A stretch of DNA of 41,399 bases from an uncultured Actinomycetes bacterium (GTDB lineage Bacteria > Actinomycetota > Actinomycetes > Actinomycetales > Microbacteriaceae): contig CAIXMB010000080.1 in assembly GCA_903920435.1 (NCBI GenBank), positions 1 through 41,399 of the forward strand, written 5' to 3'. Each line of letters starts with the position of its first letter. Within the stretch, counting starts at the first letter, position 1. Both the position numbers and the translations under genes were made by a program. The notes under the pieces were generated by a model that was not told where the DNA came from, made no database searches, and was given only the letters and a program-made list of their open reading frames with translations. Below, piece by piece: positions 11,436 through 30,191 of the stretch.

Positions 11436-11843
11436 ATGTTGACCGGCGTGCATCCGCTCCTCACGGGAGAACTCCTCTGGCGGCTCGACCAGATGGGGCA
11501 CTCCGACGCGGTGGTCGTCACCGACGCGCACTTCCCCGCTCGGCGCAACGGGCAGCACTCGCTCGTGCTGCCGGCGGTCTCCGCCCCCGATCTGATCGCC
11601 GCGATCCGCACGGTCCTGCCGCTCGACTCGGGCGTCGCGGTCGATCTCATGCGGACTCCCGACGGGCTGACCGCCCTCCAGCACGAGATGCTCGAGGCCG
11701 CGGGGGTCGGAGCGAGCGGTGCCGACCAGCTCGAGCGGGCCGAGTTCTACGCCCGTGCTGACGCGGCGTTCTTGGCGGTGCGCACGGGTGAGACGCGGCC
11801 GTTCGGCAACCTCATCCTGCGCAAGGGACTCGTCTCGAACTGA
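11436..11843 (+). CDS. fucU: RbsD/FucU-family sugar mutarotase
   Basis: 135 aa, standard length. The N-terminus MLTGVHPLLTGELLWRLDQMGHSDAVVVTDAHFPA carries the conserved residues of the FucU/RbsD fold (the GH.D turn and DA.FP loop); RTGETRPFGNLILRKGLV is the conserved C-terminal part with the arginine-rich interface. The family interconverts alpha and beta anomers of sugars such as L-fucose, D-ribose and related pentoses, supplying the right anomer to an isomerase or kinase. The gene precedes the D-arabinan locus, whose isomerase belongs to the fucose/D-arabinose isomerase family, so D-arabinose is a plausible substrate (inference). It has its own leaderless-type promoter. Confidence 0.82.
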   Translation: MLTGVHPLLTGELLWRLDQMGHSDAVVVTDAHFPARRNGQHSLVLPAVSAPDLIAAIRTVLPLDSGVAVDLMRTPDGLTALQHEMLEAAGVGASGADQLERAEFYARADAAFLAVRTGETRPFGNLILRKGLVSN

Positions 11844-11916
11844 GCCGATGCGCGCGGCCCCACGGTGGTCGACGGTTCGTCGTGCGCGGTTCGGGCCACT
11901 GAAATGACTGTTTCTT

Positions 11917-11928
11917 GTAATCGGTTTC
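11917..11928. promoter_or_regulatory. Degenerate LacI operator (site A)
   Basis: GTAATCGGTTTC matches the locus palindrome GAAATCGATTTC at 10 of 12 positions and is followed by CTG/TG sequence like that at site D. It lies 70 bp upstream of site B before the DUF4185 gene, a spacing compatible with looping by a tetrameric LacI-family protein. Confidence 0.45.
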
Positions 11929-11930
11929 TG

Positions 11931-11945
11931 TCAATGATTCATTGA
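11931..11945. promoter_or_regulatory. Perfect 15-bp palindrome, possible second operator
   Basis: TCAATGA-T-TCATTGA is a perfect dyad with 7-bp arms, A+T-rich in a 70% G+C window, placed directly after site A and upstream of the DUF4185 promoter. It has no similarity to the LacI motif, so it may bind another regulator. Confidence 0.5.
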
Positions 11946-11981
11946 AGTTTCAGGTCAATTTCAGGGCCTCTCATGGCCGCC

Positions 11982-12010
11982 TTGACGGAATCGATTTCTT
12001 GATGTCTACT
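11982..12010 (+). promoter_or_regulatory. DUF4185 operon promoter with embedded LacI operator (site B)
   Basis: TTGACG (11982-11987) and TCTACT (12005-12010) are 17 bp apart. GGAATCGATTTC (11987-11998), an 11/12 match to the perfect palindrome and identical to site C, fills most of the spacer, so a bound repressor would exclude RNA polymerase. The start codon follows about 37 nt downstream with GAGGAGGG as ribosome-binding site. Confidence 0.7.
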
Positions 12011-12046
12011 GGTGTCACGAGTTCTTCGATGAGGAGGGAGCCAGGG

Positions 12047-13171
12047 ATGCGTGCGACCCGGGTGCGAGCGACTGCGGCGGCACTGCTGCTGATCGTGACC
12101 GCCCTTGCCGGGTGTGCATCCTCGAGTGCAGTCGTGACCAATCCCGCAGACTCCCCCTTCCTCCTGACCGGCGTCACCGGTGTCGAGCAGCTCGGCCAGG
12201 TGACGGGTGCCGACTCCGCCAGCAAGACGGACCAGTACGCGGTGTACGGCACCGACCTCGGCTCGATGTTCCAGTACGAGGGCAAGACGTGGTTCGTGTT
12301 CGGCGACACGTTCGGCGAGCGCGACGCCGACCAGATCGGCGGCGGCGGATCGTTCTGGCGGTCGAGCACCCTCGGCTACACGACGGACACCGATCCCAGC
12401 GACGGCATCACGCTCGACGGCATGGTCGTCGACGACATCGGCCTCGCAACCGAGCTCCTGCCGTCGAAGAAGATCGACAACGACGAGATGACGGTCATCC
12501 CGACGCACGGGTTCGCCGCGAACGGCGCCATGTACCTGCACTGGATGTCGGTGCGGCACTGGGGCGTGCCCGGCGAGTGGGAGGTCAACGACGCGGGGCT
12601 CGCGAAGTCGACCGACTCGGGCCAGACCTGGACGGTGCTCGACGAACCCCGCTGGGGCGGCGAGAGCAACTTCGTGCAGGTGAGCCCCTTCCACGTCACC
12701 GAGGGCGGCGTCGACTGGCTGTACTTCTGGGGCATCACCCACGGCCGCTTCTCGGGCGTCGCGCTCGCGAAGGTCGAGGCCTCGCAGGTCGAGGACCCCG
12801 CGGCGTGGCAGTACTTCACCCAGACCGACGCGGCCGGGCAGCCGCAGTGGTCGTCATCGCCGGATGACGCGGCCCTCGTGCTCGATGACACCGTGGGCGA
12901 GCTCTCCGTGGTGTGGAACGACTACCTCGGGCGCTGGATCATGACCTACCTGCGCGAGGGCGATGGCGCGGTCATCCGTGAGGGCATCAACCCCTGGGGT
13001 CCGTGGGGCGACCCGATCACACTCGTGGGGGCCACCGACGTTCCGGGGCCGTACGCACCATTCATGGCACCGAACTACACGACGGACGGAGGCAGGACGA
13101 TCTACTTCGGACTGTCGATCTGGGATCCGTACAACGTGTTCTGGTACAAGGCCGAGCTGTCGAAGGACTGA
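12047..13171 (+). CDS. DUF4185 lipoprotein, candidate GH183 endo-D-arabinanase
   Basis: 374 aa from ATG 12047 (GAGGAGGG upstream). Lipobox LAGC with Cys23 places it on the outer face of the membrane. The mature protein shows the DUF4185 beta-propeller pattern: TDLGSMFQYEGKTWFVFGDTFGE (residues about 70-95), SSTLGYTTD, LYFWGITHGRFSGVALAKV, VVWNDYLGRWIMTYL and a last blade with IYFGLSIWDPYNVFWYKAEL. DUF4185 proteins with endo-D-arabinanase activity on mycobacterial arabinogalactan and lipoarabinomannan define family GH183. The FGDTF and DLG acids are candidate catalytic or substrate residues (inference). First gene of the import operon, under the LacI operator. Other carbohydrate specificities of the fold cannot be ruled out. 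Confidence 0.78.
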   Translation: MRATRVRATAAALLLIVTALAGCASSSAVVTNPADSPFLLTGVTGVEQLGQVTGADSASKTDQYAVYGTDLGSMFQYEGKTWFVFGDTFGERDADQIGGGGSFWRSSTLGYTTDTDPSDGITLDGMVVDDIGLATELLPSKKIDNDEMTVIPTHGFAANGAMYLHWMSVRHWGVPGEWEVNDAGLAKSTDSGQTWTVLDEPRWGGESNFVQVSPFHVTEGGVDWLYFWGITHGRFSGVALAKVEASQVEDPAAWQYFTQTDAAGQPQWSSSPDDAALVLDDTVGELSVVWNDYLGRWIMTYLREGDGAVIREGINPWGPWGDPITLVGATDVPGPYAPFMAPNYTTDGGRTIYFGLSIWDPYNVFWYKAELSKD

Positions 13172-13185
13172 TCGGCGCACATACT

Positions 13186-13203
13186 CGGCTCGAGGACGAG
13201 CCG
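13186..13203 (+). other. Short intergenic hairpin before the binding-protein gene
   Basis: CGGCTCG-agga-CGAGCCG is a perfect 7-bp stem with a 4-nt loop in the 50-nt gap between the DUF4185 and binding-protein genes. It could be a processing or stabilising element at the 5' end of a separate binding-protein transcript. Confidence 0.45.
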
Positions 13204-13221
13204 GATCACGAGAGGAAGCAC

Positions 13222-14559
13222 ATGCACAAGAGGCGCAACAGGGCAGCGGCATTCGCTGCCGCCGTCGTGAGCACCGCCCTGGTACTCACCGGCTGTTCCA
13301 CGGGCGGCGGCGGCGATACCGCGAGCGGCACCACCACAGTCACGTTCTGGCAGCAGAAGTTCGAGGACTACCAGGGCGTCTGGTTCAAGAAGTACGTCGA
13401 CGCCTTCAACAAGTCGCAGGACAAGGTGCACGTCGACTACCAGGTCATCCCCGCAGACACCTGGGCCCAGAAGCTCCAGGCCGCGCAGGCCGCGGGCAAG
13501 CAGCCCGACATCGCGACGACCAACTACGGCAACATCGCCGCGGGCGTCGTCAACGGCCAGTTCGCCGCGCTCGACGACTACATGCCGGCCGAGTCGTTCT
13601 CCGACATCAAGGAGAACGTGTCGAGCTTCGTGACCATCGACGGCAAGCACTACGCCTACCCGATGCTCGTCGAGCCCTCGACGGTGCTGTACTACAACAC
13701 CGATCTCGTGACCGCGGCCGGGCTCGACCCGAACTCGCCGCCCACCAGCTGGGCCGACCTCATCGACTGGTCGACGAAGCTCACGAGCGGCGACGTGAAG
13801 GGCATGACCATCGCGTCCACCGCGCCCGACCTCGGCTGGTCGAGCTGGGGCCTGCAGTACAACGCCTGCGGCCACCTGCCGATCAACGACGACTGGTCGA
13901 AGGCAGACGCCACCGACCCGTGCTTCGACAAGCTGCTCGACTTCTACAAGACGCTCTACCAGGGCAACCTCATCCCGCAGCAGCCGAAGGTCGGCTACGC
14001 GGACGGCTCGCCCTACGGCGCCGGCGAGGTCGCGATGATGGCGGGCGGCTCGTGGGTCATCGGCCAGTTGAAGAACGACTACCCCGACATGCTCGCCAAG
14101 ACCATGGTCGCTCCGTTCCCGTCCATCGACGGTGACCAGACCAAGCCCACGGCGACCCTCGGCGGGTGGACGCTCACCCTCGACTCCAAGTCGAAGAACC
14201 CCCAGGCGGCCGCCGACTTCATCCAGTACCTGCTCGCGGGAGACCCGGCCATCATGGCCGACTTCTTCAAGGCCGCCGGGTACTCGAAGTACACGGTGCG
14301 CACGTCGGTCGATGAGGCACTCGCCTCCGACCCCGACGCGAGCGCCGACCCCTTCATGCAGACGATCTCTGAGAAGGTCGTCGCCTACGGCAAGCAGGAG
14401 CCCGGCTACCCCTGGGATGTCGCGCTCGCCTTCGGCACGGCGATCGAGTCGGCGATGAAGGGCACGGATACGGTCGAAGGGTCGCTCGCGACAGCGGATG
14501 CCGCGATCAACGACGTGATCACCAAGCAGGGCCTCGCCGGCACTGCGCCCAAGAAGTAG
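13222..14559 (+). CDS. ABC transporter sugar-binding lipoprotein (extracellular solute-binding protein family 1)
   Basis: 445 aa, AGAGGAAG before ATG 13222. Lipobox VLTGC with Cys25. Family 1 features: TTTVTFWQQKFEDYQGVWFKKYVDAFNKSQ, KQPDIATTNYGNIAAGVVNGQFAALDDYM, YAYPMLVEPSTVLYYNTDLVTAAGLDPNSPPTSWADLIDW and the MMAGGSWVIGQLK hinge element near the middle. Such proteins capture mono- or oligosaccharides for the two permeases encoded next. Context suggests D-arabino-oligosaccharides released by the DUF4185 enzyme. It is separated from the permeases by a very stable hairpin. Confidence 0.9.
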   Translation: MHKRRNRAAAFAAAVVSTALVLTGCSTGGGGDTASGTTTVTFWQQKFEDYQGVWFKKYVDAFNKSQDKVHVDYQVIPADTWAQKLQAAQAAGKQPDIATTNYGNIAAGVVNGQFAALDDYMPAESFSDIKENVSSFVTIDGKHYAYPMLVEPSTVLYYNTDLVTAAGLDPNSPPTSWADLIDWSTKLTSGDVKGMTIASTAPDLGWSSWGLQYNACGHLPINDDWSKADATDPCFDKLLDFYKTLYQGNLIPQQPKVGYADGSPYGAGEVAMMAGGSWVIGQLKNDYPDMLAKTMVAPFPSIDGDQTKPTATLGGWTLTLDSKSKNPQAAADFIQYLLAGDPAIMADFFKAAGYSKYTVRTSVDEALASDPDASADPFMQTISEKVVAYGKQEPGYPWDVALAFGTAIESAMKGTDTVEGSLATADAAINDVITKQGLAGTAPKK

Positions 14560-14572
14560 CCAGTTCGACACC

Positions 14573-14607: not shown

Positions 14608-14626
14608 TCAACCGAGGGAACACAAC

Positions 14627-15601
14627 GTGTCTGCAATCACGCCCACCGAGACCATCACCGGCCAAGTGGCCGGCGTCAGTCCGGGGCTGAGACGGCGTAG
14701 GGCACAGTCCCCTCGCGTGGCCAAGCACCTGCGGAGCAACCGCACCGCGTACCTGATGATCGCCCCGATGGTCATCCTGCTGTCGATCTTCGTGATCTGG
14801 CCGCTGATCTACGCGGTGTACCTGAGCTTCTTCAAGATCAGCTTCTACAAGGGCTCCGAGTTCGTCGGCCTGCAGTACTACATGTTCGTCCTGCAAGACC
14901 CGAAGTTCTGGAACTCGCTCGTCGTCGGCATCGAGTTCGCGGCGATGGTCGTGCCCGCCGGAATGGTCATCTCGCTCCTGCTCGCGAGCTTCATCAAAGT
15001 GCTCAGCAAGCGCATGGCCAGCTTCATGAAGGTCACGGTCTACGTACCCGCAGTGATCTCGACGGTCGTGGCATCCGTGCTGTTCCTCTTCATGTACCAA
15101 GACCAGGGCGTCATCAACTGGTTCCTGTCGCTCCTGAATGCCGGGCCGGTCGCCTGGCTCAACAACCCGGGCACCGCCCTACCGGCCATCGCGGTGCCGG
15201 CGATCTGGCTCGGCCTCGGCATCACGACGCTGATCATGCTCGCGGGGCTGCTCGACATTCCCGACAGCTACTACGAGTCGGCCGAGCTCGACGGCGCCGG
15301 CTTCTTCAAGCGCACGTTCTACATCACCATCCCGCTCCTGAAGAACATCCTGCTGTACCTGTTCGTCACCGGCTTCACGGCGGCGATCCAGATGCTCGAC
15401 CTTCCGCTGGTCATGACGAACGGCGGTCCCGTCAACGCGACGACGACGCCCAACCTCTTCATCTTCAACAACTTCCGCGGGGCGACGCCCTACGCGACGA
15501 GCTTCTCGCTCACCACGGCGCTGCTGCTGTTCGTCGTGCTCGGACTCATCTCGGTGCTGGTCTTCCGGCTCATCAACTCAGACAAGGCGGTGGACGGCTG
15601 A
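14627..15601 (+). CDS. Sugar ABC transporter permease, MalF/MsmF-type
   Basis: 324 aa from GTG 14627 with GAGGGA upstream. A cytosolic N-terminus of about 37 residues is followed by a first helix (AYLMIAPMVILLSIFVIWPLIYAVYLSFF) and about five more. The EAA loop that contacts the ATPase is visible as YYESAELDGAGFFKRTFYITIPLL (about residues 215-238). Ends TGATG-style, overlapping the next permease by 1 nt. It forms the membrane channel with the neighbouring permease. No ATPase gene is linked, so an unlinked shared MsiK-type ATPase is expected (known for many actinobacterial sugar importers). Confidence 0.9.
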   Translation: MSAITPTETITGQVAGVSPGLRRRRAQSPRVAKHLRSNRTAYLMIAPMVILLSIFVIWPLIYAVYLSFFKISFYKGSEFVGLQYYMFVLQDPKFWNSLVVGIEFAAMVVPAGMVISLLLASFIKVLSKRMASFMKVTVYVPAVISTVVASVLFLFMYQDQGVINWFLSLLNAGPVAWLNNPGTALPAIAVPAIWLGLGITTLIMLAGLLDIPDSYYESAELDGAGFFKRTFYITIPLLKNILLYLFVTGFTAAIQMLDLPLVMTNGGPVNATTTPNLFIFNNFRGATPYATSFSLTTALLLFVVLGLISVLVFRLINSDKAVDG

Positions 15602-16464
15602 TGTCGACAGCGACAACACCCGTGAGCGGTTCGAAGGGCACGCTGCGCCGCGGCGACCGCAACCGGCTCATCAAGATCATCGGCGTCGTGCTCATCACCC
15701 TGAGCCTGATGTTCCCCCTCGCGTGGATGGTCATCGCCGGGTTCAAGGGCAAGACAGAGGTCCTGCGATCCCCGTTCCAGTTCTTCCCCGACATGTGGGA
15801 CCCGAAGAACTACATCGCGATCATCCAAGACCCGCAGTTCTCGCGCGCCATGATCATCACGTTCCTCGGCGCCGTGATCTTCACCGTGCTGAGCATCGCG
15901 ATCAACTCGATGGCCGCCTACGCCCTCGCGCGGCTCGACTTCGCGCTCAAGCGCTTCTGGTGGGTGTTCTGCATCATGCCGATGTTCATCCCCGGCATGG
16001 CGATCCTGCTCACCTCGTTCATGGTCGTGTCGCAGCTCGGCATGCTCGACACCCTCGCGGTGCTGATCATCCCCGGCGTGGCATCCGCGGTGCAGATGTT
16101 CTTCCTCCGGCAGTTCTACCTGAACATGCCGGTGGCCGTGGAGGAGGCCGCACTCATCGACGGCGCCAGCCGCTGGCAGATCTTCACCAAGATCTTCGTG
16201 CCCCAGTCCGCCGCGGTCTTCGTTGTCGTCGGGATCGGGTCGTACATGGCCTACTGGAACGCGTACGTGTGGCCGATCCTCACGATCACGAACCCCGACC
16301 TCACGCAGATCATGCAGTTCCTCGGCAACTTCCGCTCCGATCGCGGCAACGAGTGGGGCCTCCTGATGGCCGGCTCCACGCTGGCCGCGCTGCCCACGAT
16401 CATCCTCGTGCTGTTCTTCCAGCGCTACATCGTCAACGGCGTGCGCATCTCCGGCATCAAGTAG
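15601..16464 (+). CDS. Sugar ABC transporter permease, MalG/MsmG-type
   Basis: 287 aa, six hydrophobic helices. The EAA motif VEEAALIDGASRWQIFTKIFVPQ (about residues 181-203) marks the ATPase-docking loop; the C-terminus FFQRYIVNGVRISGIK is typical of MalG-like subunits (F.Q..Y...G...G..K). Starts 1 nt inside the stop of the MalF-like gene, so stoichiometric coupling is likely. The stop codon abuts the TTG of the exporter gene directly, with no spacer, which indicates that exporter and importer share one transcript. Confidence 0.9.
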   Translation: MSTATTPVSGSKGTLRRGDRNRLIKIIGVVLITLSLMFPLAWMVIAGFKGKTEVLRSPFQFFPDMWDPKNYIAIIQDPQFSRAMIITFLGAVIFTVLSIAINSMAAYALARLDFALKRFWWVFCIMPMFIPGMAILLTSFMVVSQLGMLDTLAVLIIPGVASAVQMFFLRQFYLNMPVAVEEAALIDGASRWQIFTKIFVPQSAAVFVVVGIGSYMAYWNAYVWPILTITNPDLTQIMQFLGNFRSDRGNEWGLLMAGSTLAALPTIILVLFFQRYIVNGVRISGIK

Positions 16465-18180
16465 TTGCACCCGCTCCCCGAACCGCTCCCGGCCGGCGCG
16501 CCCCCGCGCCGGCCGCCCGCGTCCTTGGGCTGGCTCGCCCGGCACCAGTGGGTGTCGATTCTCCTCGGCACCCTGCTCGACACCGTATGGCTGTGCACTC
16601 TCGCGTTCGCGCCGTGGGCGATCGGTCGCACGATCGACGAGGGTGTCGCGACGGGCGACCTGAGCCGCCTGCTCGCCTGGGTGGGCATCGTGCTCGCGTT
16701 CGAGACCGTGCACTCCGTGGTCGAGGGGCTGCGCGACCGCGGCGGCATCATCAACTGGACGCGCGCCACCTACCGCTCGATCGGCCTCATCTCGCGGCAC
16801 GCGTCGCGAGCCGGCTACGCGATCGGCAAGAAGGTGTCGACGGGCGAGATCGGCGCGACCGTCACGGGCGACGCGATGTCGATCTCCTACCTCGCGTTCC
16901 TCGTCGGCGCGTTCATCGCGGCCCTGCTCTCGTACGGGATCGTCGGCGCGATCCTCCTCGCGACCTCGGTGCCGCTGGGGTTGCTCGTGCTCGTCGGCGT
17001 GCCCCTGTCGTCAGCCCTGTTCTTCATCGTGGTGAGGCCGTTGCGCACGCGCCAAGCCGAGCAGCGCGCCGCGTCGGGCCGGATGACTTCCCTCGCGGCC
17101 GACACCGTGGCGGGGCTGCGCGTGCTGCGCGGGGCGGGTGGCGAGCGCATGTTCGTCGAGCGGTACCAGGCCGCCTCCGACGAGACCCGGGCGACGGGCA
17201 TCCGGCTCGCGACACCGCTCGGGATCATCGACGGCATTCAGGTGCTCATCCCCGGGAGCTTCATCGTCGCGCTCACCTGGGCGGGTGCGCTGCTCGTGCA
17301 GGCCGGGCACCTCACGCCCGGGCAGCTCGTCTCGTTCTACGGGTACGCGGGCTTTCTCGTCATGCCGATCCGGCTCGCGGCCGAGGCGGTCTCGACGTTC
17401 ACGCGCGGGCAGGTCGGCGCGGGGCGCATCCTCGGGGTGCTCGGGGTGGAGCCGCTCACGACGGCCGAAGGATCGGCGCCCGCGGAGGGCGGCTCCCTCG
17501 CCGACGACACGAGCGGCCTCTCCCTCGTCGCGGGCAGGTTCGTCGCCGTCGTGGGCGACGACGCCGACACGATGACCGCGCTGCTCGACCGGCTCGCGCG
17601 CCTCGACGATTCCGCGGCCGGTGCCGGCGGCGTCCGGCTGGGCGGTATCGGCGTGGGCGGTATCGCGCTCGCGGAGGTGCGTCGGCGGGTGGTCCGCGCC
17701 GACGCCGACCCCTTCCTCTTCCGCGGCACGCTGCGCGACGCCCTGGACCCGCACTCCCACCTGTCGGACGAGCACCTCGCTGCGGCCGTCCGGTCGGCGG
17801 CCGCGAGCGACATCGTCGACGCCCTGCCGCACGGGCTGCAGAGCCAGATCGGCGAGCGTGGCCGGCTCATCTCGGGCGGCCAGCGACAGCGAGTGGGGCT
17901 CGCCCGTGCTCTCGCCCTCGACCCCGAGTGGCTCCTCCTGGAGACCCCGACATCGGCGGTCGACAGCCACACTGAGGCCATCATCGCCGGTCGGCTCCGT
18001 CACGCGCGCGAGGGGCGGTCGACGCTCGTCGCCACGACGAGCCCGATGCTGCTCGCCGAGGCGGACGAGGTCGTGCTGCTGAGTGCGGGGGTGGTGGCGG
18101 CATCCGGGACGCACCGCGAGCTCCTCGAGTCCGAGCCCGCCTACCTCGCGATCGTCCGCAGGGCCGAGGGGGAGTCGTGA
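16465..18180 (+). CDS. ABC exporter half-transporter with degenerate ATP-binding domain (lacks Walker A)
   Basis: 571 aa from TTG 16465, directly after the permease stop. Residues about 25-320 form a six-helix exporter domain. The nucleotide-binding domain is atypical: the P-loop position reads VVGDDADTMTALL (residues 362-374) without GxxGxGKS/T; Walker B reads LLLET (Glu493 in place of Asp, Thr494 in place of the catalytic Glu); the switch His is replaced (ATTSP). The signature ISGGQRQR (470-473 SGGQ) is intact. It therefore cannot hydrolyse ATP alone but can donate a signature motif to a partner. The next gene has the complementary pattern, so the pair is an asymmetric heterodimer with one working site. 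Substrate unknown. Confidence 0.85.
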   Translation: MHPLPEPLPAGAPPRRPPASLGWLARHQWVSILLGTLLDTVWLCTLAFAPWAIGRTIDEGVATGDLSRLLAWVGIVLAFETVHSVVEGLRDRGGIINWTRATYRSIGLISRHASRAGYAIGKKVSTGEIGATVTGDAMSISYLAFLVGAFIAALLSYGIVGAILLATSVPLGLLVLVGVPLSSALFFIVVRPLRTRQAEQRAASGRMTSLAADTVAGLRVLRGAGGERMFVERYQAASDETRATGIRLATPLGIIDGIQVLIPGSFIVALTWAGALLVQAGHLTPGQLVSFYGYAGFLVMPIRLAAEAVSTFTRGQVGAGRILGVLGVEPLTTAEGSAPAEGGSLADDTSGLSLVAGRFVAVVGDDADTMTALLDRLARLDDSAAGAGGVRLGGIGVGGIALAEVRRRVVRADADPFLFRGTLRDALDPHSHLSDEHLAAAVRSAAASDIVDALPHGLQSQIGERGRLISGGQRQRVGLARALALDPEWLLLETPTSAVDSHTEAIIAGRLRHAREGRSTLVATTSPMLLAEADEVVLLSAGVVAASGTHRELLESEPAYLAIVRRAEGES

Positions 18181-19928
18181 GCAGTGACGACACCCAGCTG
18201 CCGGTGGCGAGCGGCGGGCGCGTGCGCCACGTCGTGCTCGGGCTGCTGCGCAGGCATCGGGCCGAGTACGTGGGCGTCGCGACCCTCGCAGCGCTCGCCG
18301 CGGTCGCCGGGCTGGTCGGCCCGTTCGTCGTAGGGCGGCTCGTGCAGAGCCTCACCCTGGGCGGCGACGCCTCGGTGGTGGCCGCTCTGAGCATCGCGAT
18401 GCTCGTGGCCGTGCTGCTGCAGACGGTGTTCACGGGCCTCGGCACGAGGCTCGCGATGGTGCTGGGGGAGAAGATCTTCGCGACCCTGCGCGACGACTTC
18501 ATGCGCGACGTCACTGCGGTGCCGATCTCCGTCGTCGAGAGCGCGGGCACGGGCGACCTGCTCACGCGCACGACTGCCGACATCGACGCGGTAGCCACGA
18601 CGGTGCGGTTCGCCGTTCCGCAGCTCGCGGTATCCCTCGTGGCCGTTCTCCTCACCTTCGTGGCCGCGTTCGTGACGTCGCCGCTCGTCGCACTCGCGCT
18701 GCTCGTCGGCATCCCGGTGATCGTCATCGTGGCGCGGTGGTACCTCGCGCGCGCACCCCGGGCCTACCTCGATCTGAACGCCGAATACTCCGACCTCTTC
18801 GGCACCGTCTCCGAGACCATGGACGGGGCCCGCACCGTCGACACGCTCGCCCTCGGCGAGGTGCGGATCGCGGCCACCGACCTCTCCCTCGCGCAACTCT
18901 GGGAGCGCCGCCTGCGCATCGTGCGCCTCAAGCTCGTGCTGCTGCCGGTGAGCGGGCTCGCGTACACGGTGCCGATCCCGCTCGCGCTGCTGTGGGGCGG
19001 CTTCCTCGTCACACAGGGGCTCGCGACCGTGGGAGCGGTGACGACGGTCACCCTGTACGCCGTGCAGCTCACCGTGCCGATCGTCGCCGTGGTGCAGTGG
19101 CTCGACAAGCTGCAGCTCGGGCTGGCCTCGCTCGCGCGCATCCTCGGGGTGGGCGGCATCGAGCCCGACCGCGTCGAGGGCACCGCTCGGCCGACGGGAT
19201 CGCTCGTGCGCCTCGAGGGCGTGCACTACAGCTACCCGAACGGGCCCGAGGTGCTGCACGGGCTCGACCTCGAGCTCCGGCCGGGCGAGCAGTTCGCGAT
19301 CGTGGGGCCGTCGGGCGCGGGCAAGTCGACGATCGGCCGCATCATCGCGGGCATCGACGCCCCCACGGGCGGCCGCGCGACCGTCGGGGGCGTTCCCCTC
19401 ACCGCGCTTCCCCTCACCGTGCTGCGTCGCGAGGTCGCCCTCGTCACCCAGGAGCACCATGTCTTCGTCGGCACGATCGCCGACAACGTGCGGATGGGGA
19501 GCGACCACTCCACCGATGAGGAGGTGCTGGGTGCGCTCGCCGTGGCGGGGGCGCGAGCCTGGGTGGAGGCGCTGCCGAACGGTCCGCAGACCGTGGTCGG
19601 GTCGGGCGGGCATCCCCTCAATGCCGCCCAGGCGCAGCAGCTGGCACTGGCGCGCCTCGTGCTCATCGACCCCCACACCCTGGTGCTGGACGAGGCGACG
19701 TCGGTCATGGATGCCCGCGCCGCCCGCTCGGTCGAGCGCGCGCTCGGCGCGGTGCTCGAGGGCCGCACGGTGGTCTCGATCGCGCACCGCCTGCACACCG
19801 CCCACGACGCGGACCGTATCGCTGTCGTCGAGCACGGCCGCATCGTCGAGCTGGGCTCCCACGACGAGCTGATCGAGCGCGGCGGCGCATATGCGGCCCT
19901 GTGGGAGCGCTGGAGCACCGACGCCTAG
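18177..19928 (+). CDS. ABC exporter half-transporter with canonical ATPase but degenerate signature
   Basis: 583 aa, GTGA 4-nt overlap with the upstream half-transporter. Six-helix exporter domain (about residues 25-310), then an ATPase domain with Walker A GPSGAGKST (Lys383), Q-loop LVTQEHH, Walker B LVLDEATSVMD (Asp505, Glu506) and switch His537 (IAHRL). The signature is LNAAQ (481-485) in place of LSGGQ. Combined with the partner, which keeps LSGGQ-type signature but lost Walker A, this gives one complete catalytic site (this Walker A/B with the partner signature) and one dead site. Heterodimeric exporters with one degenerate site are known; here the division is extreme. Its stop overlaps the convergent Gfo/Idh stop by 4 nt. 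Confidence 0.87.
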   Translation: MSSDDTQLPVASGGRVRHVVLGLLRRHRAEYVGVATLAALAAVAGLVGPFVVGRLVQSLTLGGDASVVAALSIAMLVAVLLQTVFTGLGTRLAMVLGEKIFATLRDDFMRDVTAVPISVVESAGTGDLLTRTTADIDAVATTVRFAVPQLAVSLVAVLLTFVAAFVTSPLVALALLVGIPVIVIVARWYLARAPRAYLDLNAEYSDLFGTVSETMDGARTVDTLALGEVRIAATDLSLAQLWERRLRIVRLKLVLLPVSGLAYTVPIPLALLWGGFLVTQGLATVGAVTTVTLYAVQLTVPIVAVVQWLDKLQLGLASLARILGVGGIEPDRVEGTARPTGSLVRLEGVHYSYPNGPEVLHGLDLELRPGEQFAIVGPSGAGKSTIGRIIAGIDAPTGGRATVGGVPLTALPLTVLRREVALVTQEHHVFVGTIADNVRMGSDHSTDEEVLGALAVAGARAWVEALPNGPQTVVGSGGHPLNAAQAQQLALARLVLIDPHTLVLDEATSVMDARAARSVERALGAVLEGRTVVSIAHRLHTAHDADRIAVVEHGRIVELGSHDELIERGGAYAALWERWSTDA

Positions 19929-23374: not shown

Positions 23375-23386
23375 GGAATCGATTTC
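23375..23386. promoter_or_regulatory. LacI operator (site C) between GH172 operon and lacI
   Basis: GGAATCGATTTC, identical to site B, lies 58 bp before the GH172 start codon and 100 bp before the lacI start. On the plus strand TTGGAA overlaps it and TAGGCT (23394-23399) follows; spacing is short for a standard promoter. One bound repressor could control both directions, including its own gene. Confidence 0.65.
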
Positions 23387-23486: not shown

Positions 23487-24482
23487 ATGGCAACGATCTA
23501 CGAGGTCGCAGCACTCGCCGGGGTCTCGCCTGCCACAGTGAGCCGGGTGGTGAACGGCCAACGAGTCTCGGAGGAGAAGGCGGCGCTGGTGCGTGCGGCC
23601 GCCGCAGAGCTCAACTTCACGCCCAACCGCACGGCCCGTACGCTGCGCCGCCAGAACTCCGAAGTCATCGCCCTCGTGCTGCCGGACATCGAGAACCCCT
23701 ATTTCACGTCCATGGCGCGCGGCGTCGAGGACGTCGCGCGGGCCGCGGGCTACTCCGTGGTGCTGTGCAATACCGACGAGGATCCGGCCAAGGAGGCCAA
23801 GTACCTCGACATCGCGATCTCGGAGAACATGGCGGGGGTCGTCCTCGCACCGGCCTCCGACCACACCGACCTGCAGCATCTCGTGGCGCGCGGCCGGCCG
23901 ATCGTCGCGGTCGACCGCAGCACCAGGTTCGACATCGACGGCGTGATGATGAACAACCGCCAAGGTGGCCTGTCTGCCGCCCAAACACTGGTCGACGCGG
24001 GGTACCGGCGCATCGCCTGCATCACCGGCCCGCGCGACATCGAGACCGCCGCCGAGCGCAGCAACGGCTGGCGCGAGATCGTCACCAGGGCGGGCATGTT
24101 CGACCGCCCCGACGACTACCTGCGCTACTCGACCTTCCGCGTCGACGGCGGCCGCACGGCGATGCAGGAGCTGCTCGCGATGGAGAACCCGCCCGACGCC
24201 GTGGTCGCCGCCAACAACCTCATGGGGGTCGGCGCGCTCCAGGTGCTCACCGAGACGGGTCTGACGCCGCCGGCCTTCGGGGTTGCCGTGGTGGGCGACC
24301 TGCCCTTCACGACCCTGCCGCCGGCATCCGTGTCGATAGTCAGACTGCCCGCGCGGCACATGGGTGTGACGGCCGCGCGCATGCTCCTCGAGCGCATCGA
24401 CGGCGATACCCAGCCCGCCCGCACGGTGGTACTGCGCAACGAGATCATCCCCGCGACGAGCGTGCCCGCTCCGACCGTCTAG
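23487..24482 (+). CDS. LacI-family repressor of the D-arabinan locus
   Basis: 331 aa. Helix-turn-helix and hinge at the N-terminus: TIYEVAALAGVSPATVSRVVNGQRVSEEKAALV and NRTARTLRRQNSEVIALVLPD. The periplasmic-binding-protein-like ligand domain follows (NPYFTSMARGVEDVARAAGYSVVLCNTDED; GVVLAPASDHTDLQHL; DAVVAANNLMGVGALQVL). Ligand would be a sugar or sugar derivative, presumably D-arabinose, D-ribulose or a short arabino-oligosaccharide (inference). The gene sits in the middle of the locus and four copies of a palindromic motif flank its target genes and itself, arguing for local repressor and autoregulation. A 7-bp GCGCGCG/CGCGCGC hairpin follows the stop. Confidence 0.88.
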   Translation: MATIYEVAALAGVSPATVSRVVNGQRVSEEKAALVRAAAAELNFTPNRTARTLRRQNSEVIALVLPDIENPYFTSMARGVEDVARAAGYSVVLCNTDEDPAKEAKYLDIAISENMAGVVLAPASDHTDLQHLVARGRPIVAVDRSTRFDIDGVMMNNRQGGLSAAQTLVDAGYRRIACITGPRDIETAAERSNGWREIVTRAGMFDRPDDYLRYSTFRVDGGRTAMQELLAMENPPDAVVAANNLMGVGALQVLTETGLTPPAFGVAVVGDLPFTTLPPASVSIVRLPARHMGVTAARMLLERIDGDTQPARTVVLRNEIIPATSVPAPTV

Positions 24483-24503: not shown

Positions 24504-24534
24504 GCAGATCGCGGCGCCGGCCGCATTTCGCGAC

Positions 24535-24562
24535 TTGTGCATGAAATCGATTTCTGTAACGA
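24535..24562 (+). promoter_or_regulatory. GH116 operon promoter with perfect LacI operator (site D)
   Basis: TTGTGC (24535-24540) and TAACGA (24557-24562) are separated by 16 bp, and the perfect palindrome GAAATCGATTTC (24543-24554) lies wholly in the spacer, as at the DUF4185 promoter. AAGGAGG (24576-24582) precedes the GTG start. Confidence 0.7.
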
Positions 24563-24586
24563 TGGTGCCGTAATCAAGGAGGATTC

Positions 24587-27082
24587 GTGATCGGCACCCC
24601 GCACCCGGAGTCGCCCCTCGCCACCGGCACCTGGCTCGGGGCCGAGGCGAGCGCGGCGGCCTTCCCGCTCGGCGGTATCGGCACCGGCAATGTCTCCGTC
24701 GGCGCGCGCGGCGAGCTCAGGGACTGGGAGCTGCACAACGCCCCGGCCAAGGGCGCCCGCCTGCCCTTCAGCTTCTTCGCGCTCGACGTGCGCGGTGCTG
24801 ATGCCGAGCCCGTGACGCGCGTGCTTCAGTCGCAGTTCCGCGCGCCGCACGAGGCCGACCAGGGCTACTACGCGGGCGACCTGGGCGGGCTGCCGCGCTT
24901 CGAGAACTCACGGATGCTCGGCGAGTACCCCTTCGTCCGCGTCGACTTCGACGACCCGAAGGTGCCCGTGCAGGTCTCGCTCGAGGCGTTCACACCCTTC
25001 GTGCCCCTCGACGCGGACGCCTCCGGCATCCCCGCCGCCGTGCTCAGGTACCGCGTGACGAATCCGACCGCGTCGCCGCTGACGGTCTCCGTCATCGGGT
25101 CGCTCGCGAACCCCGTGGGCGCCGGCGAGCCCGACGTCTTCCACTTCCCGCGGTTCGACGGGCATCCGGTCAACACCTACCGGGATGCGGACGGCGTGCG
25201 CGGTGTGCACGTCACCTCCGACCTGCCCGCGGATTCGCTCGCGTTCGGCAGCGCGAGCCTCACGACCGCCGACGACAGCACGAGCGCCAAGCCCACCTGG
25301 CTGTGGGGGTTCTGGCAGGACGGCGCGCAGGTCTTCTGGGATGACGTGCGCGACGACGGCCGAATCGACCCCGAGCCCGTGGAGACCCTCGAGACCGGTG
25401 ACCTGCCCGAGTGGATCACGCGGCTGCGGGTCGGCTCGCTCGGCATCCACCACGAGCTCGCGCCGGGCGAGACGCGCGACTTCGAGTTCCGCCTCACCTG
25501 GTACTTCCCCAACCGGCCCCAGGCGTGGCTCGGCAACATCAACCTGCCGAGCCCGCACGCCGGGCAGATCGTGCGCAACCACTACGCCACGCGCTTCGCC
25601 GACGCGTGGGAGGTCGCGACGCACCTGGGCCGCGAGCTCTCCGGGCTCGAGGCGGCGAGCCGGGCCTTCCATGCCGCGCTGCACGGGTCGTCACTGCCGG
25701 CCGAGGTCATCGACGCCGCGGCATCGAACCTGGCGGTCATCCGTAGCACCACTTGCTTCCGGCTGGAGGACGGCACCTTCGCGGCGTGGGAGGGCAGCTT
25801 CGACGCCCACGGCAGTTGCGAGGGTACCTGCACCCACGTGTGGAACTACGCGCAGGGCCTCGCGTACCTCTTCCCCGAGCTCGAGCGCAGCGCCCGCCGC
25901 ACGGAGTTCCTCGGCGAGACGCGCGACGACGGCCGCATGAACTTCCGCGCGAACAGCATCTTCGACTCGCCCGCCTGGGAGTTCCACCCCGCCGTCGACG
26001 GGCAGCTCGGCACCGTCGTGCGGCTCTATCGCGAGTGGCGGTTCAGCGGCGACGACGAGTTCTTGCGCGAGGTGTGGCCCGCGGCGAAGCGCGCCCTCGA
26101 GTTCGCGTTCGTCGAGTGGGACGCCAACGGCGACGACGTGCTCGACAGCAAGCAGCACAACACTTACGACATCGAGTTCTACGGCGAGAACTCCCTCAGC
26201 AACTCCGTGTTCTTCGCGGCCCTGCACGCGGGTGCTCGGCTCGCCGAGCACCTCGGCGAGCCCGCCACCGCCGAGCGCTGGCTCGCGGCCGCCGAGCGAG
26301 GCGCCGCCCACATGGACGAGCTCCTGTTCAACGGCGAGTACTACGAGCAGAAGCTCGACGACGTCGACGCCGTGCGCTACCAGTACGGCACGGGGGTGCT
26401 GAGCGACCAGCTCTTCGGCCAGTACCTCGCGCACGTCACGGGCCTCGGCCACGTGCTGCCCGCCGAGCACGTGCGATCGGCGATCGCCGCGGTGTTCCGC
26501 CACAACTTCCGCCCAGACCTCAGCGAGCACCACAGCGTGCAGCGCACCTACGCGCTCGGCCACGAGGCCGGGCTGGTCCTGTGCTCCTGGCCGCGCGGGG
26601 GGCGCCCGCGCATCCCGTTCGTGTACTCCGACGAGGTGTGGACCGGCATCGAGTACCAGGTTGCCGCCCACCTCGTGTTCGAGGGGCTCGTCGACGAGGG
26701 GCTCACCCTCGTGCGGGCCGTGCGGAGCCGCCACAACGGCACCAACCGCAACCCATGGAACGAGGTGGAGTGCGGCAACCACTACGCGCGCTCCCTCGCG
26801 AGCTGGGCGGTGCTCATCGCCATGACCGGGGCGCAGTACGACGCGCAGGCCCGCTCGCTCGCGTTCGCGCCCGCGCAGGAGGGGTCGCTCAAGACGTTCT
26901 TCAGCACGGGCTCCGGCTGGGGCCGCGCCTCCCTCGACGACTCGGGTGTGACGCTCTCGCTCGACTTCGGCACCCTCGCCCTCGACACCCTCACCGTGGG
27001 CGGCCGCCCGCTCACGACGACCTCCGGCAGCCTCACCGCCGGCGACAGCACGCGCTACACCTATGAAGGAGCACCGGAATGA
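24587..27082 (+). CDS. GH116-family glycoside hydrolase, candidate exo-beta-D-arabinofuranosidase
   Basis: 831 aa from GTG 24587 (AAGGAGG upstream); no signal peptide, so cytosolic. The N-terminal beta domain (GBA2_N type) starts AAFPLGGIGTGNVSVGARGELRDWEL and includes PFVRVDF and RYRVTNPTASPLTVSVIGS; the C-terminal alpha/alpha barrel spans about residues 360-780. By alignment with GBA2-type motifs, the nucleophile is Glu412 in CEGTCTHVWNYA and the acid/base Asp528 in HNTYDIEFYG. GH116 includes beta-glucosidases, beta-xylosidases and, from a Microbacterium, an exo-beta-D-arabinofuranosidase. Locus context favours the last. Its stop overlaps the isomerase start by 4 nt (ATGA), and the promoter carries the perfect LacI operator. 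Confidence 0.86.
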   Translation: MIGTPHPESPLATGTWLGAEASAAAFPLGGIGTGNVSVGARGELRDWELHNAPAKGARLPFSFFALDVRGADAEPVTRVLQSQFRAPHEADQGYYAGDLGGLPRFENSRMLGEYPFVRVDFDDPKVPVQVSLEAFTPFVPLDADASGIPAAVLRYRVTNPTASPLTVSVIGSLANPVGAGEPDVFHFPRFDGHPVNTYRDADGVRGVHVTSDLPADSLAFGSASLTTADDSTSAKPTWLWGFWQDGAQVFWDDVRDDGRIDPEPVETLETGDLPEWITRLRVGSLGIHHELAPGETRDFEFRLTWYFPNRPQAWLGNINLPSPHAGQIVRNHYATRFADAWEVATHLGRELSGLEAASRAFHAALHGSSLPAEVIDAAASNLAVIRSTTCFRLEDGTFAAWEGSFDAHGSCEGTCTHVWNYAQGLAYLFPELERSARRTEFLGETRDDGRMNFRANSIFDSPAWEFHPAVDGQLGTVVRLYREWRFSGDDEFLREVWPAAKRALEFAFVEWDANGDDVLDSKQHNTYDIEFYGENSLSNSVFFAALHAGARLAEHLGEPATAERWLAAAERGAAHMDELLFNGEYYEQKLDDVDAVRYQYGTGVLSDQLFGQYLAHVTGLGHVLPAEHVRSAIAAVFRHNFRPDLSEHHSVQRTYALGHEAGLVLCSWPRGGRPRIPFVYSDEVWTGIEYQVAAHLVFEGLVDEGLTLVRAVRSRHNGTNRNPWNEVECGNHYARSLASWAVLIAMTGAQYDAQARSLAFAPAQEGSLKTFFSTGSGWGRASLDDSGVTLSLDFGTLALDTLTVGGRPLTTTSGSLTAGDSTRYTYEGAPE

Positions 27083-28716
27083 CCAGCTACACCCTCCCCG
27101 CCGAGCGCACCGCGACGGCGGTCGCCCCGAACACCGCATGGCTCATCTCGAGCGGCGACCTGCGGCCCTCGGCGAACGAGGCCGGCTGGCCCACCCAGCA
27201 GCAGCTCGAGGCCGACGTGACGGCCGCGCTCGGCACCCTCGGGTGGTCGGTGGTGCGCGCGAACCCCGTCGATCCGGCGACCGGCCACGGCTTCATCAGC
27301 AGCCAGCGCATGGGCCTCGAGGTCTTCAAGGGCATTCCCACGGATGCCCCACTCATCGTCGCGGAGGCCGTGTGGCAGTACAGCCACCACGTGCTCGCGG
27401 GCCTGCGCACGCACCGCGGACCGATCCTCACCGTGGCCAACTTCGCACCGGACTGGCCGGGGCTCGTCGGCCTGCTCGGGCTCAACGCGGGTCTCACCAA
27501 GATGGGCAAGCCGTACTCGACGATCTGGAGCGTCGACTTCACCGACGAGTGGTTCATGAACGGACTGCGCGAGTGGGTCGAGACTCAGCACATCACGCAC
27601 GACGCATCGCACGTGCATCCGTTGCCGTCGCTCGGTGAGAGCGCGGAGAAGGCGCTCGGCGAGGCGCTCGCCAACCAACTGCTCGAGGAGAAGGCCATCA
27701 TCGGCGTCTTCGACGAGGGCTGCATGGGCATGTACAACGCGATCTTCGACGACGAGCTGCTCAACCCGATCGGCATCTACAAGGAGCGCCTCTCACAGAG
27801 CGCTCTCTACGCCGAGATGCTCACCGTGAGCGACGCCGATGCCGCGGGCGTGGGGGAGTGGCTGAAGAGTGCCGGAATGACCTTCCGCACCGGCACCGAC
27901 GAGAAGACGGAGCTCACCGAGGCGCAGCTCACCTGGCAGTACAAGATGTACATCGCCGCCCTGCGCATCGCCGACGACTTCGGTCTCGACGCGATCGGCA
28001 TCCAGTACCAGCAGGGGCTGAAAGACCTGGTGCCGGCGAGCGACCTCGCCGAGGGCATCCTGAACACGACGGACCGCCCGCCCGTGTTCAGCAGGGACGG
28101 CAAGCGCGAGCTGCACGCGGGCCTCGCGATGCCGCACTTCAACGAGGCAGATGAGGGCGTCGCAGTCGACGCGCTCATCACCGACCGGGTGTGGCGCGCG
28201 ATGGGTCTCGTGCCCGACAACACCCTCCACGACGTGCGGTGGGGCGAGCAGGTCGGAGACGACTTCGTGTGGGTCTACGAGATCTCCGGCTCCGTGCCCG
28301 CGTCGCACCTCGGCGGCTGGCAGAACGCGGAGGGCTGGCGGCAGGGCCCGGTGTTCTTCCCGGCGGGCGGCAGCACCATCAACGGCGTCTCCAAGCCCGG
28401 CGAGATCGTCTGGTCGCGGGTCTACATCGCCGAGGGCGTGCTCAACATCGACCTCGGCCGCGCGAGCGTCGTCGAGCTGCCTGCGGAGGAGACCCAGCGC
28501 CGCAAGGATGCCACGAACCCCGAGTGGCCCATCGCCCACGTCTTCCTGCACGGAGTGACGCGCGACCAGTTCATGGCCCGCCACAAGGCGAACCACGCCC
28601 AGGTCGTCTACGCGCCGGATGCACCGACCGCCGACCGCGCGCTCACCGCCAAGGCGGCGATGTTCGCGAAGCTCGGCGTGCGGGTGCACCTCATCGGCGA
28701 TACCCCGCTCGTCTAG
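27079..28716 (+). CDS. L-fucose/D-arabinose isomerase-family protein
   Basis: 545 aa, slightly shorter than E. coli FucI (591 aa). Recognisable segments: FKGIPTDAPLIVAEAVWQYSHHVLAGL, GPILTVANFAPDWPGLVGLLGLNAGLTKMGKPYSTIW, FDEGCMGMYNAIFDDELL (metal-ligand Glu213), AIGIQYQQGLKDLVP, and the C-terminal KANHAQVVYA with His506, equivalent to the His near the FucI C-terminus. FucI-type enzymes convert L-fucose to L-fuculose and equally D-arabinose to D-ribulose, since the sugars share stereochemistry at C2-C4. With no fucosidase or fuculose-phosphate aldolase nearby but three D-arabinan-type hydrolases, D-arabinose isomerisation is the favoured role. Coupled on both sides: ATGA overlap upstream, TAGTG downstream. 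Confidence 0.83.
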   Translation: MTSYTLPAERTATAVAPNTAWLISSGDLRPSANEAGWPTQQQLEADVTAALGTLGWSVVRANPVDPATGHGFISSQRMGLEVFKGIPTDAPLIVAEAVWQYSHHVLAGLRTHRGPILTVANFAPDWPGLVGLLGLNAGLTKMGKPYSTIWSVDFTDEWFMNGLREWVETQHITHDASHVHPLPSLGESAEKALGEALANQLLEEKAIIGVFDEGCMGMYNAIFDDELLNPIGIYKERLSQSALYAEMLTVSDADAAGVGEWLKSAGMTFRTGTDEKTELTEAQLTWQYKMYIAALRIADDFGLDAIGIQYQQGLKDLVPASDLAEGILNTTDRPPVFSRDGKRELHAGLAMPHFNEADEGVAVDALITDRVWRAMGLVPDNTLHDVRWGEQVGDDFVWVYEISGSVPASHLGGWQNAEGWRQGPVFFPAGGSTINGVSKPGEIVWSRVYIAEGVLNIDLGRASVVELPAEETQRRKDATNPEWPIAHVFLHGVTRDQFMARHKANHAQVVYAPDAPTADRALTAKAAMFAKLGVRVHLIGDTPLV

Positions 28717-30191
28717 TGGGCGTCGTCCTCGGAGTCGACGTCGGCACCTCGAGCACGAAGGGCGTGCTGGTCGACCTGTCGGGCAGGGTGGTCGCGACCG
28801 CGGTGCGGGAGCACGACGTGTCGCGCCCCCGCCCGGGCTGGGTCGAGATGGACGCGGAGGTGTGGTGGGACGAGTTCGTGTCGATCGCGCGCGAGCTCGT
28901 GGCCACCACGCAGGAGAATGTCGTCGCCGTCGGGGTCAGTGGTATGGGTCCGTGTGTCGCCCTCGCCGACGGAGACGGCGTTCCCCTGCGGCCCGCGATC
29001 CTCTACGGGGTCGACACGAGGGCGACGCAGCAGATCGCCCGGCTGACGGCCGAGCTAGGGGCCGACGAGATCCTCGCGCGCGGCGGATCGGCGCTCTCGA
29101 CCCAGGCCGCGGGGCCGAAGATCGCGTGGGTTGCCGAGAACGAGCCGGCGGTCTTCGGGGCGGCCCGCAAGGTGTTCATGCCGGCGTCGTTCCTCGCCTA
29201 CCGGCTCAGCGGCGCCTACGTGCTCGACCACCAGTCCGCGAGTCAGTGCTCGCCGCTCTACGACTCGGTGGCGCAGGAGTGGTACTGGCCGTGGGCCGGC
29301 CCGATCGTGGGCGACATCGAACTGCCGCCGCTCGTGTGGTCCGACTCGATCGTCGGCACCGTGACGTCGACAGCGGCCGCGGCGACGGGCCTGCCTGTGG
29401 GCACTCCCGTCGTCTCCGGCACGATCGATGCCTGGACCGAGGCCGTCAGCGTCGGCGCGCAGCAGCCCGGCGACCTCATGCTCATGTACGGCACCACGAT
29501 GTTCCTCGTCAACACGATCTCCGACCGCATCACCATCCCCGAGCTGTGGGGCACCGTCGGTGCGTTCGAGGGCACGCGCAACCTCGCGGGCGGCATGGCG
29601 ACATCGGGCGCGATCACCGGCTGGCTCCGCGGCCTTGTGGGGTCTCCCGACTACCCCACGCTGCTCGCCGAGGCCGCCGCCTCGGGGCCCGGCGCCCACG
29701 GGCTGCTCATGCTGCCGTACTTCGCGGGCGAACGCACTCCCATCGCCGATCCGGACGCGCGCGGCGTCATCGCCGGCCTCACCATCGAGCACACCCGCGG
29801 CGACCTCTACCGTGCGGCACTCGAGGCGACAGCCCTCGGCGTGCGGCACAACGTCGAGGCGATCCGCGCCGCGGGCGGCAGCATCGAGCGCGTGGTGGCC
29901 GTGGGCGGCGGCACGCAGGGCGACCTCTGGCTTCACGTGGTCTCGGATGTCACCGGCCTCACCCAGGAGGTGCGCTCGGTCACGATCGGGGCGAGCTACG
30001 GCGCCGCGTTCCTCGCGGCGCGCGCCGTGGCCTCCGTGTCCATCGACGAGTGGAACCCCGTGCAGCGCATGGTCGAGCCGGATGCCGCGCTCGCCGCCTC
30101 GTACGACGAGTTGTACGCCCTGTACCGCGACCTCTACCCGTCGACCGCTGCTGTCATGCACGCCCTCGCCGAACGGCAACGGGAGAGCTAG
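28716..30191 (+). CDS. FGGY-family pentulose kinase, probable D-ribulokinase
   Basis: 491 aa from GTG 28716, overlapping the isomerase stop by 1 nt. N-terminal phosphate-binding motif GVDVGTSSTKGVLVD, then RPGWVEMDAEVWWDEF, AVGVSGMGPCVALAD and ILYGVDTRA; the catalytic Asp is expected in GTIDAWTEAVSVG (Asp238); the FGGY C-terminal signature region is GGSIERVVAVGGGTQGDLWLHVVSDVTG. The family phosphorylates ketopentoses, glycerol and related polyols. Following a FucI-type isomerase, the likely reaction is D-ribulose + ATP -> D-ribulose 5-phosphate, an intermediate of the pentose phosphate pathway. L-fuculose or D-xylulose are the alternatives. Confidence 0.85.
   Translation: MGVVLGVDVGTSSTKGVLVDLSGRVVATAVREHDVSRPRPGWVEMDAEVWWDEFVSIARELVATTQENVVAVGVSGMGPCVALADGDGVPLRPAILYGVDTRATQQIARLTAELGADEILARGGSALSTQAAGPKIAWVAENEPAVFGAARKVFMPASFLAYRLSGAYVLDHQSASQCSPLYDSVAQEWYWPWAGPIVGDIELPPLVWSDSIVGTVTSTAAAATGLPVGTPVVSGTIDAWTEAVSVGAQQPGDLMLMYGTTMFLVNTISDRITIPELWGTVGAFEGTRNLAGGMATSGAITGWLRGLVGSPDYPTLLAEAAASGPGAHGLLMLPYFAGERTPIADPDARGVIAGLTIEHTRGDLYRAALEATALGVRHNVEAIRAAGGSIERVVAVGGGTQGDLWLHVVSDVTGLTQEVRSVTIGASYGAAFLAARAVASVSIDEWNPVQRMVEPDAALAASYDELYALYRDLYPSTAAVMHALAERQRES

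Follow-up and report, generated by a model that had tools for sequence, protein, structure and literature searches.

The 41,399-nucleotide contig CAIXMB010000080.1 (assembly GCA_903920435.1; hereafter the window) of an uncultured bacterium of the Microbacteriaceae carries, at 11436-30191, a set of genes that very probably form a D-arabinan utilisation locus of the kind known from Microbacterium arabinogalactanolyticum. The genes of three glycoside hydrolase (GH) families, GH183 (DUF4185), GH172 (DUF2961) and GH116, lie here together with those of an ATP-binding cassette (ABC) sugar importer, a LacI-family regulator, a FucU/RbsD-type mutarotase, an aldose-ketose isomerase and an FGGY kinase (Table 1). 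An earlier note on this DNA had placed the hydrolases, importer, mutarotase, isomerase and kinase in one locus, and all of the families that it named were found by Pfam (20 open reading frames (ORFs) of the window scanned, E 0.001 or better; three ORFs without a match). The genome, of 3.16 Mb in 204 contigs with a GC content of 70%, is 96% complete.

Among 80 related loci, GH172, LacI and GH116 occur together (each at more than 300 bits) in 51, which points to clustering beyond chance; these 51 are referred to below as the core loci. The nearest named copies are those of Leifsonia sp. SCN 70-46 (locus L038) and of Rhodoglobus sp. RYN_70 (locus L023), in both of which the GH183B protein is 88-93% identical to that of the window. 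They have the same gene order over the parts compared, at 82-98% identity of the shared genes, except that the latter has an extra GH183, which groups with EndoMA1 in the tree described below, between the exporter and the oxidoreductase.

Comparison with published loci

The D-arabinan polysaccharide utilisation locus (PUL) of M. arabinogalactanolyticum JCM 9171, reported by Shimokawa et al. in 2023, comprises four GH183 genes, GH172, GH116, an ABC transporter and downstream enzymes (isomerase, kinase). It is induced by D-arabinose and by wall extract, a route to D-ribulose 5-phosphate was proposed, and related clusters in other bacteria were noted (PMC10509167). This locus was recovered as L084, and it has in common with the window GH183, GH172, GH116, the ABC importer, LacI, the kinase and the isomerase. 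The identities are 85% for GH172, 78% for the isomerase, 68% for LacI, 65% for the kinase and 53% for GH116. A complete route in a single locus, put forward earlier as a new description, had therefore already been published, together with its transporter, isomerase, kinase and induction; what the window adds is an organism that appears to use only the two GH183 types left uncharacterised in 2023, and a conserved operator. Cultured relatives with such a locus include Agromyces subbeticus DSM 16689 (L043) and Leifsonia poae VKM Ac-1401 (L033).

The two loci also differ. The kinase gene follows GH116 in the window but precedes it in M. arabinogalactanolyticum, and the neighbour of the GH172/GH183B pair is a Gfo/Idh/MocA oxidoreductase in the former and, in the latter, a gene (L084:5357-6268) that we take, from its motif, to be of the short-chain dehydrogenase/reductase type. 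Within the 22 kb that make up L084, neither the exporter pair nor FucU was matched; the transporter half of that PUL lies beyond this stretch. In the parallel study by Al-Jourani et al. in 2023 (PMC10115798), GH172 and GH183 likewise serve D-arabinan, but the locus is that of a member of the Bacteroidota, Dysgonomonas gadei. Searches of the literature on GH183, DUF4185, GH172 and endo-D-arabinanases gave no later study of such loci, as judged by title or the start of the abstract.

Table 1. Features of the D-arabinan locus and their positions in the window
Feature	Coordinates	Strand	Basis
FucU/RbsD-type mutarotase	11436..11843	+	Pfam RbsD_FucU 92.7 bits
Candidate LacI operator 1, GTAATCGGTTTC, before GH183A	11917..11928	+	pattern match
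Candidate LacI operator 2, GGAATCGATTTC, before GH183A	11987..11998	+	pattern match
GH183A, DUF4185 lipoprotein	12047..13171	+	Pfam 278 bits
Sugar ABC importer substrate-binding protein	13222..14559	+	SBP_bac_8 119 bits
Sugar ABC importer permease A	14627..15601	+	BPD_transp_1
Sugar ABC importer permease B	15601..16464	+	Pfam
Exporter-type ABC half-transporter, first subunit	16465..18180	+	no Walker A match, normal signature
Exporter-type ABC half-transporter, second subunit	18177..19928	+	normal Walker A, altered signature
Gfo/Idh/MocA oxidoreductase	19925..21040	-	Pfam 42 bits
GH183B, divergent DUF4185 lipoprotein	21039..22187	-	Pfam 43 bits, cut-off 39.5
GH172 (DUF2961), by sequence exo-alpha-D-arabinofuranosidase	22190..23317	-	Pfam 289 bits
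Candidate LacI operator 3, between GH172 and LacI	23375..23386	+	pattern match
LacI-family regulator	23487..24482	+	Pfam
Candidate LacI operator 4, perfect palindrome GAAATCGATTTC, before GH116	24543..24554	.	pattern match
GH116, by sequence exo-beta-D-arabinofuranosidase	24587..27082	+	Pfam N-terminal 188, catalytic 166 bits
Aldose-ketose isomerase, fucose/arabinose isomerase fold	27079..28716	+	fucose-isomerase C-domain 34 bits, cut-off 29.3
FGGY kinase, XylB-like	28713..30191	+	Pfam

The glycoside hydrolases

By sequence, GH172 and GH116 are closely related to the assayed D-arabinan enzymes of M. arabinogalactanolyticum. Among solved homologues, GH172 scores 766 bits to ExoMA1 (8ic8) versus 125 bits to the fructofuranosidase alphaFFase1, and is only distantly related to the solved GH172 of D. 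gadei (8ah3, 117 bits). Asn253 of ExoMA1 is replaced by Gly in alphaFFase1, and the Asn blocks fructofuranose (PMC10509167). The corresponding residue is Asn255 in the window and Asn in all 52 aligned relatives (53 loci exceed 400 bits, of which one, with a stop inside the matched region, was left out). Since alphaFFase1 belongs to the same family, GH172 might be thought to be a difructose-anhydride or alpha-D-fructofuranosidase and the locus to consume fructans, but with this bit score and this residue such a function is highly improbable.

Beta-glucosidases or glucosylceramidases make up the majority of the characterised members of GH116 (PMC10509167), and GH116 of the window could in principle be an ordinary beta-glucosidase. 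It scores, however, 908 bits to ExoMA2 (8ic6) versus 86 bits to the best beta-glucosidase or glucosylceramidase. In ExoMA2, E431 is the nucleophile and D557 the acid/base, and R483 and H446 were also assigned by the 2023 structures (PMC10509167). These residues correspond to E402, D528, R454 and H417 of the window protein, and are the same in all 78 aligned relatives (80, less two with a stop in the matched stretch). The equivalents of Arg483 and His446 occupy the positions where TxGH116 has His507 and Asp452, and the chance of an ordinary beta-glucosidase is practically negligible. All five catalytic or specificity residues tested across GH172 and GH116 are thus kept; the residue numbers taken from the paper fall on the stated residues in the L084 genes.

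The two DUF4185 proteins, termed lipoproteins here for their lipobox-like N-terminal sequences, are of different types. The best solved homologue of GH183A is EndoMA1 (162 bits), of which it keeps D33, D51, E243 and R198, while Leu292 is replaced by Pro. For GH183A, GH172 and GH116, therefore, the best solved homologues are D-arabinan enzymes and not fructofuranosidases or beta-glucosidases, as the earlier assignment of enzymes to substrate had supposed. GH183A is nearest to the transporter-side DUF4185 protein of M. arabinogalactanolyticum (the L105 copy; 49% identity, 355 bits, versus 169 bits for EndoMA1), which would be MIAR_33320. GH183B, which the earlier note had overlooked, has its nearest counterpart in a divergent gene that lies, in L084, between those of EndoMA1 and GH172 (57%, 402 bits). 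From its gene order, size and isoelectric point (pI), we infer this gene to be MIAR_33220, the candidate for the natively secreted enzyme: its product has 366 amino acids and a pI of 4.34, and the range given in the paper is 300-400 amino acids and pI 4.3-4.6 (PMC10509167). Both MIAR_33220 and MIAR_33320 were insoluble, and the function of the former was called elusive (PMC10509167). In its products, the native enzyme was like EndoMA2 and not like EndoMA1 (PMC10509167), which speaks neither for nor against this identification.

A quick tree of 70 DUF4185 rows places GH183B and the L084 gene together in a clade of 14 rows (Shimodaira-Hasegawa-like approximate likelihood ratio test 100); GH183A groups with the L105 gene in a clade of 13 rows, with a support of only 80. 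The putative PULs of congeneric species were said to lack a homologue of MIAR_33220 (PMC10509167). Of 30 Microbacterium loci besides that of M. arabinogalactanolyticum, with flanks of up to 10 kb, six were found to have a homologue of GH183B type above 300 bits, as were Agromyces subbeticus, Leifsonia sp. and Rhodoglobus sp. The window genome has two DUF4185 matches, neither of them nearest to EndoMA1 or EndoMA2, as compared with four in M. arabinogalactanolyticum and two in Leifsonia sp. SCN 70-46; these counts are what the Pfam model sees, and the model can miss proteins of GH183B type, as in genome G203 below.

GH183B itself is divergent. Its sequence retrieves no GH183 chain from the PDB (best E 0.21, an unrelated entry), and neither does the profile of its clade, whose nine hits are all confined to short Asp-box regions in proteins of sialidase type (best E 8.6e-5). 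Profile comparison by hhalign relates it to the GH183A-type rows with a probability of 98.4%. In the MAFFT alignment, every one of the 14 clade rows has both catalytic Asp residues (Asp33, the nucleophile, and Asp51, the acid/base), to which D59 and D77 are assigned in the window protein; the hhalign alignment covers the Asp51 motif but begins past that of Asp33. The position of Glu243 is Gln in 14 of 14 rows by MAFFT; by hhalign it is Asp, Asn or Gly in five rows compared, the window having Asp, Agromyces Asn and L084 Gly. The third carboxylate is, on these alignments, not conserved across the clade, while an acid may be present in the window protein. How essential this Glu is differs between the two papers of 2023: E243A and E243Q nearly abolish the activity of EndoMA1 (PMC10509167), whereas E381A of DgGH4185b broadly keeps it (PMC10115798). 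An apparent change of R198 to Trp in the MAFFT alignment was discarded as an alignment slip, hhalign pairing R198 with the next residue, an Arg that is invariant in the 14 rows. That GH183B is a dead pseudo-enzyme is not favoured, considering that both catalytic Asp are present in every row, though the loss in E243Q of EndoMA1 leaves some room for it.

The AlphaFold model of GH183B (predicted local distance difference test (pLDDT) 78.7, predicted template modelling score 0.84) has as its top three PDB matches EndoMA1, twice, and AraH2 of M. tuberculosis (E 1.6e-14 to 4.7e-9), with template modelling (TM) scores, by query, of 0.50-0.58 and identities of 15-17%. Behind these come five-bladed propellers (GH43 and GH62 enzymes) and sialidases, from E 1.9e-7. 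The model thus points to a GH183 fold.

In genome G203, a 52% homologue of GH183B (L144:11468-13552) is joined in one protein to LGFP repeats, of which three stretches are recognised at E 0.1 and two at 1e-5; the Pfam DUF4185 model does not detect the GH183 portion of this protein at E 0.1. LGFP repeats have been proposed as the wall anchor of a corynebacterial protein, and one mycobacteriophage endolysin has three of them (PMC3314691). Locus L144 holds also GH172, LacI, the isomerase, the kinase, FucU and another importer, and in its genome no GH116 was found at E 1e-50. Because both Asp residues are kept, the third carboxylate is not conserved, the proteins lie at the edge of or below the DUF4185 model, and one of them carries LGFP repeats, GH183B and its 14-row clade may tentatively be regarded as a distinct kind of GH183, namely a wall-targeted D-arabinanase with a remodelled cleft, and the type of the native secreted endo-D-arabinanase of M. 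arabinogalactanolyticum; this is a possibility somewhat short of even.

A conserved candidate operator and the LacI regulator

Four sites in the locus match a candidate LacI-type operator, GNAATCGRTTTC. They account for five matches in the window, where 100 shuffles give 0.01 on average, and there is no further site in the whole genome, in which a reversed-pattern control gives 0. In each of the 51 core loci, one site falls in the GH172-LacI interval and a second in the LacI-GH116 interval, and LacI is divergent from GH172; L084 has such a divergent pair with the same operator. The core loci (1,082,653 bases) contain 146 distinct sites, 40 of which are in other places, and no control sites; the 29 remaining related loci (532,639 bases) contain six matches.

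The simplest reading of this arrangement is that one LacI governs three operons, and it is presumed to sense D-arabinose or D-arabinan oligosaccharides. FucU lies upstream of the first operator and can therefore be only a putative member of the regulon. Scanning 11840-30300 for promoters yielded a single promoter-like sequence, which lies in the gap that separates GH172 from LacI and is directed towards GH172; as the shuffle mean is 0.7, it carries no weight. The terms LacI, regulator and operator are absent from the main text of PMC10509167.

Isomerase, kinase and the proposed route

A search of the PDB with the isomerase sequence alone gave no match, and the profile of the isomerase reaches only a sub-threshold match to the D-arabinose isomerase of Bacillus pallidus (3a9r, E 0.09). 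With its predicted model (pLDDT 85), Foldseek ranks L-fucose and D-arabinose isomerases first (E 5e-20, TM about 0.5, root-mean-square deviation about 23), and the fold indicated by the model is that of the L-fucose/D-arabinose isomerase superfamily. The kinase scores 311 bits to the XylB model TIGR01312, below its cut-off of 380, versus 102 bits to L-fuculokinase. XylB-type kinases phosphorylate at O5 and not at O1, so that the kinase fits O5 rather than O1 phosphorylation. The presumed reactions are from D-arabinose to D-ribulose for the isomerase and from D-ribulose to D-ribulose 5-phosphate for the kinase.

In a survey of 299 genomes of the family, that of the window included, GH116 was found in seven (E 1e-50 or better), GH172 in 16 (1e-30), GH183B in three (1e-15) and the isomerase in 40 (1e-30); none of the four was found in the five other genomes of the same genus. 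This patchy spread is what a horizontally moving catabolic island would be expected to show. Five plasmid records have a GH116 relative, but all below 60% identity and with no link to the locus seen, and plasmid carriage was set aside. The isomerase was likewise rejected as a marker of D-arabinan loci, considering its presence in 40 genomes versus seven for GH116 and its absence from one of these seven, genome G028, which has a GH116 of 39% identity.

The survey bears on a different reading, in which the isomerase, kinase and FucU serve another sugar of the same configuration, L-fucose or a relative, and are merely placed beside arabinan hydrolases. The isomerase occurs without GH116 in 34 genomes, and in the 12 of these neighbourhoods that were read, the kinase is present in seven, a regulator like the LacI of the locus in ten, GH172 in two (L143, L144) and GH116 in none; their other neighbours are mixed. 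In one (L147:3042-11103), the isomerase and kinase lie between FucU, an enolase-superfamily gene and an amidohydrolase, a set that resembles oxidative fucose or D-arabinose pathways, and L-fucose isomerases are among the best structural matches of the isomerase. On the other side, the kinase is XylB-like and not FucK-like, the isomerase is present in 49 of the 51 core loci, and the GH116, isomerase and kinase genes overlap by 4 bases each downstream of operator 4. Neither a fucosidase nor a fuculose-phosphate (class II) aldolase was found among the 20 window ORFs, as the earlier note had stated for the locus; fucosidases were not searched genome-wide, and two Aldolase_II proteins encoded elsewhere in the genome have as best models L-ribulose-5-phosphate 4-epimerase and a RhaD-dehydrogenase, so that they look to be of AraD and RhaD type. 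Taken together, service to such another sugar seems unlikely. The route from D-arabinose to D-ribulose 5-phosphate is plausible, but since the isomerase is spread far more widely than D-arabinan loci, its sugar specificity and the assignment of the pair are less firm than was first stated.

FucU scores 66 bits against the NCBIfam L-fucose mutarotase equivalog, whose cut-off is 141, and can be placed in the RbsD/FucU superfamily only. Copies occur beside GH183A in Leifsonia sp. SCN 70-46 (L104, 86%), in genome G280 (L015, 49%) and in loci L144, L147 and L151 (48-54%).

Among the remaining genes, the exporter-type ABC pair (16465-19928) is heterodimeric with one degenerate site. Its second subunit exceeds 300 bits in four of the 80 related loci, and homologues of the Gfo/Idh/MocA oxidoreductase, for which some modified sugar in the polymer is a possible substrate, exceed 250 bits in seven. 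On the minus strand at 30213-34480, adjoining the kinase, is a separate block of a LacI, a Gfo/Idh/MocA protein, a DUF993 protein (532 bits) and a sugar-isomerase-like protein with weak NCBIfam matches only. The block is found at 49-65% identity also near GH116 and the isomerase in genome G189 (L019/L020), and a literature search gave no paper on DUF993. Three plus-strand ORFs upstream of FucU (9573-11352) have no NCBIfam match at E 1e-6.

In the mechanism proposed for the locus, the two surface-anchored GH183 proteins would cut the alpha-D-arabinan of mycobacterial-type walls, and the oligosaccharides would be taken up by the ABC importer. No importer ATPase was found in the locus, and the power would come from a MalK/UgpC-type ATPase encoded elsewhere in the genome. 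In the cytoplasm, GH172 would remove alpha-linked and GH116 beta-linked D-arabinofuranose, and the isomerase and kinase would convert D-arabinose to D-ribulose 5-phosphate. The LacI beside GH172 would repress the three operons through the four operators until D-arabinose or its oligomers bind.

Several observations weigh against this reading. The exporter pair and the oxidoreductase are without an assigned role in a D-arabinan locus; GH183B finds no GH183 in the PDB either by single sequence or by clade profile; no GH183 of EndoMA1 or EndoMA2 type was found in the window genome (two DUF4185 hits in a 96% complete assembly); and FucU lies outside the operators, while the isomerase far exceeds GH116 in distribution. 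Even so, a D-arabinan utilisation locus of the M. arabinogalactanolyticum kind remains very probable, considering the gene content, the closeness of GH172 and GH116 to the assayed enzymes, the conserved residues and the operator sites.

D-arabinan, an unusual sugar polymer of the mycobacterial cell wall, is typical of mycobacteria and related organisms, and the enzymes that degrade it are tools for dissecting lipoarabinomannan and arabinogalactan. The operator provides a sequence signature for finding such loci, and GH183A and GH183B are alternative sequences for deciding whether the types that were insoluble from M. arabinogalactanolyticum are D-arabinanases. The present organism appears to manage with only these two GH183 types, which were left uncharacterised in 2023.

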